A DNA stretch of 64,000 nt. Source: Eubacterium sulci ATCC 35585 (lineage in GTDB: Bacteria > Bacillota > Clostridia > Peptostreptococcales > Anaerovoracaceae). Below, one piece after another: positions 967 through 5,937 of the stretch (positions within the stretch are counted from its first letter, which is position 1; every line of letters starts with the position of its first letter). Location of the stretch: assembly GCA_001189495.1 (NCBI GenBank), contig CP012068.1, positions 620,001 to 684,000 of the forward strand. The letters are read 5' to 3'. A model generated the notes under the pieces. That model was not told the DNA's origin. It ran no database searches and saw only the letters and a list, made by a program, of their open reading frames with translations. Both the position numbers and the translations under genes were made by a program.

Positions 967-2736
967 ATGTCAGTTATACAAAACATTTTATCGAAAATAG
1001 GAGAGTTTTTCATAGGCATATTCGACCTGTTTAAAGAGCTTTTTACGCTCTCAGACGGTTACGGCCTGCTTTACACGGCCATCGCAAGGTGGGTGTTCAT
1101 AATTCTCTCGCTCTTCATCCTGGTTAAATCCATAGTTTCGCTATTGCGAAGCAGGAGTCCAAATGAGGTGTGGGCATATTTCAATGTCAACGATCGCATA
1201 GCCTATCCGATAACTCACTGGGAAAACCTAATAGGAAGATCAAAGAGCTGCGACCTTGTACTAAAAGACGGTGCAGCTTCACGAAGCCACGGTACGCTCA
1301 GCAGAGACGCTGAGGGAAGGTGGTCATATATGGATCTTGGATCGAGCAACGGCAGTATCTGTGCCGGAAAAAGACTCACCAAGGGCAAGAAGTATCCTAT
1401 AGAGCCAGGTGACAGCATTCTCATCGGCCAAAGCACATGCACACTTCTTCCAATAAGCCTTGAGGAGAAGAGAAACAACGAGAAACTCAGAAAGGAAGAA
1501 ACCTTCCTTCTATCACCATGGTCATCGCTTTTGATGCTGACACTATTTCAGCTAATGACAGTGATTCAGCTAGATATATCGCTAGGAGAATCATATACAA
1601 GCCAAATTGCAGTAGCATTTGCTGGTCTATGCATACTTATGTGGGTCTATGTTATCTCCATGAGAATGCTCAAGAGAAAGAGTTTTGAGATGGAGACGAT
1701 AGCGTTTTTCTTGTCAACTCTAAGCCTTGCGGTTACGGCCAGCAAATTCCCGCACTCAGTGCTCAAGCAGTTCATAGCTATAGTCTTTGGAGTGCTCCTA
1801 TTTGTTGGAATGTGCACGGTTCTAAGAAATCTAGATAGAAGTAAGGCTATCAAAAAATACCTCTACGCAGGAGCTGCAGCCATGCTGATTTTCAACCTGC
1901 TTTTAGGTACAACAAAGTTCGGTGCTGCCAACTGGGTAAGCATAGGAGGGCTTTCGGTGCAGCCATCGGAGATAGTAAAGCTAGCCTTCATCTGGGTAGG
2001 TGCGGCGTCACTAGATGAGCTGATGGAGAAGAGGAACTCTTTGATATTCATGCTGTTTTCAGGATTCTGCTTCATCTGTCTTGCGCTGATGGGTGACTTT
2101 GGTACAGCTTTGATATTCTTTGTTAGCTTTTTGGTTATATCATTTCTGCGAAGCGGTGACTTCACAAAGCTCATTTTGATTGTTGGCGTTGCCTTTGTTG
2201 GAGGACTTATGGTTCTCAAGTTTAAGGCATATGTTGCCGCAAGATTTGCTGCATGGGGTCATGTTTGGGAATTCGCGGATGAGATGGGCTACCAGCAGAC
2301 TAGAACTATGTCAGCTGCATCAAGCGGAGGACTCATAGGAGTAGGTGCCGGAGATGGATGGCTTAAAACCATACCAGCTTCTGAAACTGACCTAGTCTTT
2401 GGATTCATTACCGAGGAATGGGGACTCATAATCGCTGTACTTGCAATCCTTGCTATAGTAACGCTTTCGCTATTTGCGATTCGCTCTATTTGGAGTGGCA
2501 GGTCAACCTTCTATACGATAGCTGCCTGCTCTGCGATGTCGCTATTCATATTCCAGACAATGCTAAATGTATTTGGCTCAGTGGATCTATTCCCGCTTAC
2601 TGGTGTTACCTTCCCATTCCTATCAAATGGAGGAACGAGCATGGTTGCATCTTGGGGACTTTTAGCCTTCCTGAAGGCTTCAGACACTAGAGCAAATGCG
2701 AGCATTGCGGTATCAAGTGAGGAGGCGATTGCATGA
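967..2736 (+). CDS. FHA domain fused to FtsW/RodA/SpoVE-family glycosyltransferase
   Basis: A 589-residue membrane protein. An N-terminal hydrophobic segment (about residues 36-58) is followed by a cytosolic forkhead-associated domain at about 85-165, with the hallmark GRS, SRSH and GSSNG motifs that bind phosphothreonine peptides. A polytopic SEDS domain follows (about 185-575) with the family segment PSEIVKLAFIW and the late FPFLSNGGTSM loop. SEDS proteins polymerise lipid II into glycan strands together with a class B PBP, and the next gene, overlapping by ATGA, encodes such a PBP. Actinobacteria keep FHA proteins, RodA and PbpA as separate neighbours; here FHA and RodA are one chain. No Ser/Thr kinase gene is in the window. 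Confidence 0.88.
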   Translation: MSVIQNILSKIGEFFIGIFDLFKELFTLSDGYGLLYTAIARWVFIILSLFILVKSIVSLLRSRSPNEVWAYFNVNDRIAYPITHWENLIGRSKSCDLVLKDGAASRSHGTLSRDAEGRWSYMDLGSSNGSICAGKRLTKGKKYPIEPGDSILIGQSTCTLLPISLEEKRNNEKLRKEETFLLSPWSSLLMLTLFQLMTVIQLDISLGESYTSQIAVAFAGLCILMWVYVISMRMLKRKSFEMETIAFFLSTLSLAVTASKFPHSVLKQFIAIVFGVLLFVGMCTVLRNLDRSKAIKKYLYAGAAAMLIFNLLLGTTKFGAANWVSIGGLSVQPSEIVKLAFIWVGAASLDELMEKRNSLIFMLFSGFCFICLALMGDFGTALIFFVSFLVISFLRSGDFTKLILIVGVAFVGGLMVLKFKAYVAARFAAWGHVWEFADEMGYQQTRTMSAASSGGLIGVGAGDGWLKTIPASETDLVFGFITEEWGLIIAVLAILAIVTLSLFAIRSIWSGRSTFYTIAACSAMSLFIFQTMLNVFGSVDLFPLTGVTFPFLSNGGTSMVASWGLLAFLKASDTRANASIAVSSEEAIA

Positions 2737-4064
2737 GAAAACTAGAAGTTAGATCGATAATCTGTTTAGCACTTGCAGCTATTTTGATAATCGGTACAGG
2801 AGTATTTGTGTTCCGCTTTGTCAAATACGGAAGCAAGTGGGCGACATTTTACGGAAATAGAAGCATATATGAAAACGGTGTCCTCAAAAGTGGAGCCATC
2901 TATGATAGAAATGATGTTCTCCTAGCAAAGAGTGGGGGCGGCGAAATAAAATACAACGACGATCCCGAAATAAGAGAGGCAACAGTCCATGCTGTAGGCG
3001 ATGTGAACGGTAAAATTTCAACATCTGCACTCAGCGCATATAAGGATAAGCTCATAGGATATAATCTTTTGACGGGTACATATAAGCTAAAGGGCAAAAA
3101 CGAGGACCTTAAGCTCACTCTAGATGCCGATGTGTGCAAGGAGGCCTATAGACAGCTATCCAAATACGATGCTGGATGCATAGGAATTTACAACTATAAA
3201 ACGGGTGAAATTATATGTATGGTGAGCACACCTACATTTGATCCCGAAAATGAGCCAAGCGTTTCAGCAGACGACCAGTCTGGTCTATATATGAATAGAT
3301 TTCTTTCATCAAAGCTACCGCCAGGCTCGATTTTCAAAACGGTAACTGCGGCAGCAGCAATTGAAAACACAGACTATCAAAACTTCAGCTACGAGTGCGA
3401 TGGAACTAGAGTCATCCACGGTGAAGATTTAAACTGTGCATACCCACACGGACATGTTGACCTTGGTGGTGCGCTACTTCAGTCGTGTAACGGTGCATTT
3501 TCGGTCCTAGCTGATGAAATGGGACCAGAAGTCATGAAAGACTATGTAAACAGGCTTGGACTTACCAAATCATACAATATTGATGGAATCAGAAATGTAA
3601 AGGGAAGCTTTGATTTTCCTAAGGATTCTGAGCTAAACCTAGGATGGTCTGGGGTAGGTCAGTATCATGACCTTGTGAACCCATGCTCTATGATGGTATA
3701 TATGGGAGCTATTGCAAATGGTGGAAAGGCTGCCATTCCTCATATTTTGATGAGTGACTTCAGAATAACCAAGATGACAAATCAGATGATAGATGAATCT
3801 ACATCCGAAATTCTTTCTGATATGATGAAGAAAACTGTAGAAAAAGCCTATCTTGGAGATTCTAACCTGCCAAATCTAGATGTATATGCTAAGACTGGAA
3901 CTGCAGAGTCTGCAGGAAAGAAGCCTTACGGATGGTTTGCTGGATTCCTAAAGGATGAGAATCATCCTTATGCATTTATAGTTTGCCTAGAAAACTCTGG
4001 TGAAGCTTACTATACGGCGCTTCCAGTTGCAAATAGTGTTTTACAGGTCGCAGTAAGCAAATAA
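2733..4064 (+). CDS. Class B penicillin-binding protein (PbpA-like transpeptidase)
   Basis: A 443-residue single-pass membrane protein with a TM segment at about 9-29 and a transpeptidase domain with all three active-site motifs in order: SxxK in PGSIFKT (about residue 198), SxN as SCN (about 251) and KTG in AKTGTAES (about 387). It cross-links peptidoglycan outside the membrane. The length and short N-terminal region resemble actinobacterial PbpA rather than the larger PBP2 of rods. The start ATG overlaps the stop of the FHA-SEDS gene (ATGA), so translation is coupled, as expected for a glycosyltransferase/transpeptidase pair. Whether it serves elongation, division or a sporulation-like process is not shown. 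Confidence 0.88.
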   Translation: MRKLEVRSIICLALAAILIIGTGVFVFRFVKYGSKWATFYGNRSIYENGVLKSGAIYDRNDVLLAKSGGGEIKYNDDPEIREATVHAVGDVNGKISTSALSAYKDKLIGYNLLTGTYKLKGKNEDLKLTLDADVCKEAYRQLSKYDAGCIGIYNYKTGEIICMVSTPTFDPENEPSVSADDQSGLYMNRFLSSKLPPGSIFKTVTAAAAIENTDYQNFSYECDGTRVIHGEDLNCAYPHGHVDLGGALLQSCNGAFSVLADEMGPEVMKDYVNRLGLTKSYNIDGIRNVKGSFDFPKDSELNLGWSGVGQYHDLVNPCSMMVYMGAIANGGKAAIPHILMSDFRITKMTNQMIDESTSEILSDMMKKTVEKAYLGDSNLPNLDVYAKTGTAESAGKKPYGWFAGFLKDENHPYAFIVCLENSGEAYYTALPVANSVLQVAVSK

Positions 4065-5535: not shown

Positions 5536-5937
5536 ATGAAAAATAAGAGATTTTTTGCATTGCTAATGGTAGCTGTTATGACAATTTCAGCACTAGCACT
5601 AGCTGCTTGCGGAAGCAAGACACTAGAAGAGTATGTTAAGAGCGATTCAAAGCTAGACTCAGAGATTAAGAATGTTGCACAGCAGAATGGTCTAGAGATC
5701 ACAGTTAAGGATAATACTCTAACATACATCTACAAGTACAAGGAGACAATGACAGATGACCAGATTAAGCAGATGGGTACTCAGCTAGACACAGCTCTAG
5801 AGAGTGCAAAGGCTACATTCCAGAACCTAGCAGCTGAGATGGAGACAAAGACAAAGATCAAGGGAATCACAGTTGCTGTTGAGTACCAGGATGCATCAGG
5901 TAAGGTAATCACAAAGAAGGAATTCACTTCTAAGTAA
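5536..5937 (+). CDS. Small secreted lipoprotein, DUF4854-like
   Basis: A 133-residue protein with a lipoprotein signal peptide: a basic start (MKNKR), a hydrophobic core and the lipobox LAAC, giving lipid-modified Cys25 after cleavage by signal peptidase II. The mature part is Lys/Glu/Thr-rich, with a short Tyr-rich strand (LTYIYKYKE) and a repeated EYVKSD/EYQDAS character like small clostridial DUF4854 lipoproteins. It should sit on the outer face of the membrane; function is unknown. The SD is gaggaaagagg. A strong terminator follows directly, so it is a monocistronic, probably well-expressed gene. Confidence 0.75.
   Translation: MKNKRFFALLMVAVMTISALALAACGSKTLEEYVKSDSKLDSEIKNVAQQNGLEITVKDNTLTYIYKYKETMTDDQIKQMGTQLDTALESAKATFQNLAAEMETKTKIKGITVAVEYQDASGKVITKKEFTSK

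Follow-up and report, generated by a model that had tools for sequence, protein, structure and literature searches.

An FHA domain fused to a SEDS glycosyltransferase and paired with a PbpA-like transpeptidase in Eubacterium sulci and other Clostridia

Within the 64,000-nucleotide stretch of Eubacterium sulci ATCC 35585 DNA analyzed here (the window), an FHA domain and a SEDS glycosyltransferase are encoded as a single chain and followed directly by a short, PbpA-like class B PBP; what is new is this fusion variant of the FhaB-RodA-PbpA module. No description of an FHA-SEDS fusion was found in the open literature, a coverage outside which most subscription papers fall. On balance we favor, with modest confidence, the reading that the fused FhaB-RodA and the PbpA-like transpeptidase make up a complete peptidoglycan synthase that would be docked, via its FHA domain, on a kinase-phosphorylated protein. 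The earlier note on this DNA had described the same arrangement; its observation is confirmed, and its interpretation proves right in anatomy and plausible in mechanism.

Architecture of the fusion protein and its partner PBP

The fusion gene (positions 967 to 2736 of the window, forward strand, stop included) is an intact open reading frame of 589 residues with no internal stop, and a Pfam domain search places on that one chain both domains that the earlier note had proposed, FHA spanning residues 88-154 (E 2e-14) and FTSW_RODA_SPOVE spanning residues 257-570 (E 7e-50). Along the chain, a TM helix (residues 30-61) comes first, followed by the FHA domain, two extra TM helices (residues 185-234), and the SEDS core. 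The N-terminal TM helix (1054 to 1149, forward strand) is a hydrophobic stretch after which a long loop of cytoplasmic type begins; it is modeled as a helix with pLDDT 73-88 in an AlphaFold2 structure of the fusion that was built on 37 sequences (mean pLDDT 78, pTM 0.81), and it is the equivalent of the FhaB membrane anchor.

That two genes were artificially joined by a frameshift or an assembly error, a concern raised in the earlier note, has a negligible probability. The host assembly is a single 1.74 Mb contig that is 99.7% complete, and the same fusion, 96% identical, is present in an independent assembly from [Eubacterium] infirmum NCTC12940, which is the closest of the named relatives. 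Scanning named genomes yielded 571 relatives, and in the best 80 of the 571, which were fetched, the homologous locus is a single-ORF fusion in 80/80. Such fused copies, coming from independent assemblies and falling into one clade with 100/100 support, rule out both a frameshift and an assembly join. In one family genome (G015:C16:18319-19988) the FHA and SEDS parts lie in two overlapping frames, which represents either a secondary split or a sequencing frameshift.

The FHA domain spans residues about 64-166 (1156 to 1464, forward strand), scores above the cut-off of PF00498, and has GR91, S105, R106, H108, N128, and G129 as its key residues, with the core motifs lying exactly as they had been read earlier (GRS at 90-92, SRSH at 105-108, and GSSNG at 125-129) and containing the GR, SxxH, and NG signatures. 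Residues 64-166 match the folds of the solved FHA domains of MDC1, DgcB, GarA, and FhaA with Z scores of 15-17, and OdhI is also among the matches. In an alignment of 37 relatives, G90, R91, S105, and G129 are invariant (37/37), including the phosphopeptide-binding Arg and Ser on which the earlier note had made its reading hang, and R106 (36/37), H108 (36/37), and N128 (31/37) are conserved to a slightly lesser extent. In family f95 (L188-L190), the FHA domain of the fusion is without the GSxNG loop and keeps GR and SRxH, which suggests relaxed or changed ligand recognition in these proteins.

Since N128 is lost in a minority of relatives and GSxNG is degenerate in one family, FHA binding may be weak or altered in some of them, and this bears on an alternative in which the FHA domain holds the synthase to a partner protein constitutively, phosphorylation being no longer needed. 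The fusion by itself does not require regulation, and the relaxation at N128 and GSxNG would accord with such docking; however, R91 and S105 are invariant in 37/37 and even the proteins with the degenerate loop retain GR/SRxH as their core, and we regard constitutive docking as unlikely. The predicted topology fits a cytoplasmic location of the FHA domain: Lys and Arg abound both in the FHA loop and in the one at 235-240, two TM helices lie between the FHA domain and the SEDS core, and in known SEDS proteins the N-terminus of the core is cytoplasmic. The fusion contains the sole FHA domain of the host genome, and the same is true of 38/46 family genomes that have an intact fusion.

The two extra TM helices (1519 to 1668, forward strand) lie N-terminal to the 10-TM SEDS core and are also found in unfused SEDS proteins of the same subfamily. 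The core itself (residues about 239-572; 1681 to 2682, forward strand; PF01098, E 7e-50) has the 10-TM SEDS fold, with residues 229-586 matching FtsW (8bh1, Z 31.4) and RodA (6bas, Z 26.3). In its large extracytoplasmic loop, D475 of a TDxVF motif is invariant in 37/37 and corresponds in the alignment to the Asp of the FtsW motif TDFVFA, the site of catalysis in SEDS proteins. The SEDS core fold, this Asp, and a class B PBP partner are shared with the FtsW-FtsI and RodA-PBP2 pairs, from which the fusion differs in its extra TM hairpin, its FHA domain, the absence of an MreB link, and scores that fall below the NCBIfam equivalog cut-offs for both FtsW (183 versus 337.5 bits) and RodA (147 versus 336.7 bits). 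Directly after the last TM helix is a short cytoplasmic segment, K570-A581 (KASDTRANASIA; 2674 to 2709, forward strand), in which K570, D573, R575, A578, S579, and A581 are invariant in 37/37 family relatives. This KxxDxRxxASxA pattern was looked for in the tails of unfused SEDS proteins and none was seen there, so that it is observed in the fused clade only; as a guess, the segment may provide a contact that a tethered FHA domain requires.

The next gene (2733 to 4064, forward strand) overlaps the fusion ORF by the four bases ATGA and encodes a class B PBP, as the earlier note had it, of the short kind. Its 443-residue product has a TM anchor and matches PF00905 only (residues 148-436, E 8e-46), with no glycosyltransferase domain, and it contains the active-site motifs S199IFK (S199-x-x-K202), S251-C-N253, and K387-T-G389. 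A PBP gene is found downstream of the fusion at a 4-base overlap in 50/73 relatives, and because the upstream neighbors differ between genera, the conserved unit is the pair of fusion and PBP genes. Elsewhere in the window, at 5536-5937, a small, ordinary lipoprotein-like DUF4854 (PF16146) protein is encoded downstream of the gene for a PLP enzyme of Cys/Met metabolism. With active-site and pocket residues kept, the phosphothreonine pocket and both enzymes look functional, as far as sequence can tell.

Descent of the module and its place among wall synthases

The fusion is carried by a set of Clostridia of the gut and mouth. It was found in frame in 13/293 sampled genomes of the class, with many more having a similar unfused SEDS protein, and across the phylum no fewer than nine family-level groups have it (f1, f34, f54, f61, f95, f127, f137, f185, and f193). 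The earlier note had treated it as a trait of one lineage, a view that has to be widened to these groups, although the fusions have one origin: the SEDS tree unites the fused proteins in one clade (support 100/100), which was kept when fused proteins from the phylum-wide search were added (SH-aLRT 100, quick tree).

Unfused clostridial operons have identical gene order and domains, as in Monoglobus pectinilyticus, where an annotated trio of FHA, SEDS, and PBP genes stands in the same order. Among the best 17 unfused loci, a separate TM-FHA gene is situated upstream of the SEDS gene in 16/17 and a PBP gene 3' of it in 16/17, and in most the FHA gene is just before or overlapping the SEDS gene. 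They differ from the fusion in that the TM-FHA protein, of 142-183 residues, is separate and the last SEDS helix is not followed by a KxxDxR segment. The actinobacterial fhaA-fhaB-pstP-rodA-pbpA-pknA-pknB locus has the same order of FHA protein, SEDS, and short class B PBP, and the gene order in Tsukamurella and Actinomyces is FHA, FHA, (PP2C), FtsW/RodA, PBP, kinase, and PASTA kinase, these loci being taken from plasmid-collection records of which some resemble chromosome pieces. In Actinobacteria, FhaB and RodA are separate proteins with a PP2C gene between them and kinases adjacent, whereas the fusion genome has one chain and no FhaA, and its kinase and phosphatase are unlinked to the module.

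The comparison with FhaA/FhaB, RodA, PbpA, and PknA/PknB is in fact closer than the earlier note had claimed, because the gene order is shared and the actinobacterial RodA groups with the fusion SEDS. In the SEDS tree, fused, unfused, and actinobacterial RodA proteins fall together, apart from the host's own FtsW and RodA (98/93), and in the PBP tree the fused clade has 100/100 support and the module PBPs, the actinobacterial ones included, are split from the two other host PBPs (98/97); in both splits the outgroup branches, including those of the two other host PBPs, are long. The fusion locus therefore has the order of TM-FHA, SEDS, and PbpA-like PBP that characterizes the FhaB-RodA-PbpA module, with SEDS and PBP of common descent, and because unfused Clostridia and Actinobacteria share the gene order, the fusion is a derived form of that module. 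The simplest history would be an old FHA-SEDS-PBP module followed by one fusion of its first two genes.

Three SEDS genes are present in the host: the first is separated by about 4 kb from the gene of a 668-residue PBP, the second by about 5 kb from mreB, and the fusion is a third SEDS synthase besides FtsW and the MreB-linked RodA. Across 99 family genomes, the number of SEDS matches follows a simple sum, with one match for FtsW and a further one each for MreB and for the fusion where these occur; the few exceptions to this rule are mostly split hits and incomplete genomes. The FHA-SEDS module is present in 48/99 family genomes, a count that includes the split pair in G015 and a contig-edge fragment in G022; it occurs in 32/72 genomes with MreB and 16/27 without it (Fisher p 0.26, and p 0.76 at ≥90% completeness). 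As its presence is independent of MreB, the module neither needs nor replaces the MreB system, and a replacement of MreB/RodA by the module was rejected. By SEDS count, the 27/99 family genomes without MreB are also without the MreB-linked RodA; these two were lost together, and FHA-SEDS was kept or lost independently.

The presence of the module in only 48/99 family genomes and its lack of correlation with MreB, in the more complete genomes also, could point to a dispensable, specialized synthase for stress, wall repair, or a developmental stage, with the FHA domain setting its timing, instead of a core growth enzyme. Against this, the module has persisted in at least nine groups at family level, and within the family its active sites remain intact; we give this reading a slim chance as a separate explanation; it is compatible with a synthase docked on a phosphorylated protein and not opposed to it.

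Proposed phosphothreonine reading and candidate ligands

The earlier note had reported that the window (C1:620001-684000) holds no kinase, and indeed the only Pkinase match of the genome is at C1:1128482-1129129. A search of the same genome for a PASTA or eukaryotic-type kinase, which the note had proposed, found one PASTA eukaryotic-type kinase directly beside a PP2C phosphatase. This sole kinase and the PP2C are about 0.5 Mb from the fusion, and a PknA/PknB-type kinase and PP2C were not found in the module's own cluster. A kinase is present in 48/48 family genomes with the module, but because one is also present in 96/99 family genomes overall, this co-occurrence is uninformative (chance about 0.13) and was dropped as evidence, showing only that a kinase-FHA model is possible.

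Among published precedents, FhaA recognizes phosphorylated MviN as well as the juxtamembrane region of PknB (PMC11898655, PMC12077195), and the interaction of FhaB/FipA with PknA requires its FHA domain (PMC3989709). For the fusion, we infer that Thr phosphorylation may recruit or gate the wall enzyme, as the earlier note had suggested, and that, most likely, the SEDS-PBP pair is docked through the FHA domain on a phosphorylated substrate of the PASTA kinase. The PASTA kinase would sense wall precursors or fragments and would phosphorylate threonines on itself or on a cytoplasmic partner; binding of the FHA domain to phosphothreonine would then bring the synthase to that site, or switch it on there, and the PP2C phosphatase would reset the phospho-link. 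The fusion would ensure a one-to-one stoichiometry and position the reader right beside the polymerase on its cytoplasmic face, in a synthase that would be separate from the FtsW divisome and from the MreB/RodA elongasome.

The partner PBP, which the earlier note had put forward as the phosphopeptide, is improbable as a ligand, since no threonine occurs in its cytoplasmic tail, which reads MRKLEVRS in the window and MKK(L/I)E(K/R)R in relatives. A threonine of the kinase juxtamembrane region was rejected as a conserved ligand, with no conserved Thr motif found there in 21 fusion-bearing genomes; a rough count gave fewer juxtamembrane Thr residues in these 21 than in 20 fusion-lacking genomes, the limits of the region having been set by a crude rule that ran on into the membrane for several of the fusion-lacking genomes. 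The PASTA kinases of fusion-bearing genomes (L002 and L147-L166) share a stretch resembling NIEFVTKVVGNSIF just behind the kinase domain, which is absent from the kinases of most fusion-lacking relatives and may only reflect phylogeny.

Long cytoplasmic C-tails occur in 28/76 relatives, and in 21/28 of these a Thr motif lies near the C-terminal end, compared with 0.3 expected after shuffling, a test that is post hoc because the motif was first spotted by looking at the tails. The motifs are PLTLDDIFG, EITDFSQL, and similar, with Asp most often at +3, a residue that some FHA domains favor at that position. Within the C-terminal 10-35 residues, PLTL[DE]D[IL]FG or E[IV]TDFSQLEDDDL ends tails that are otherwise variable (L074, L079, L085-L088, L090, L092-L095, L099, L103, L105-L109, and others), and the motif is a candidate phosphothreonine site or docking motif.

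These tails could belong to an intramolecular switch, as in OdhI and GarA, in which the FHA domain would bind a phosphothreonine in the tail or linker of its own chain and so close or open the synthase. Such a switch would be in keeping with the frequency of the motif in long tails, with T574 in the segment after the last helix being Thr in 34/37, and with the fold match to OdhI and GarA, whose FHA domains read phosphothreonine, although these are soluble metabolic regulators with no fused wall enzyme. However, the tail of the window's own protein, like most of the 76 complete tails, is short and without the motif, and two related homologues have Ser in place of its Thr, where FHA domains prefer phosphothreonine. 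We therefore consider self-binding improbable as the general mechanism, and docking of the synthase on a protein phosphorylated by the PASTA kinase remains the preferred reading.

Possible meaning for PASTA kinase control of SEDS polymerases

The fusion bears on how PASTA kinases control SEDS polymerases. In tuberculosis-type bacteria the signaling link passes through two separate proteins, and the fusion hard-wires it in one chain. Several kinases and FHA proteins blur the answer in Actinobacteria, and streptococci have no FHA domains (PMC12077195), whereas these Clostridia offer a clean case with one kinase, an adjacent phosphatase, and, in those 38 of 46 family genomes, a single FHA domain within the polymerase itself, so that point mutants in one protein could test direct phospho-control. 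Because the SEDS-fused FHA is the only FHA domain in most genomes, it is conceivable, though we hold it only tentatively, that the fusion is a minimal hard-wired phospho-switch in which the PASTA kinase would act on the SEDS polymerase via one covalent reader, some relatives being self-contained with a phosphorylatable C-tail motif. With gene order continuous between Clostridia and Actinobacteria, the FhaB-RodA-PbpA module is not an actinobacterial specialty; it is widespread in Clostridia, where it occurs with MreB or persists without it.
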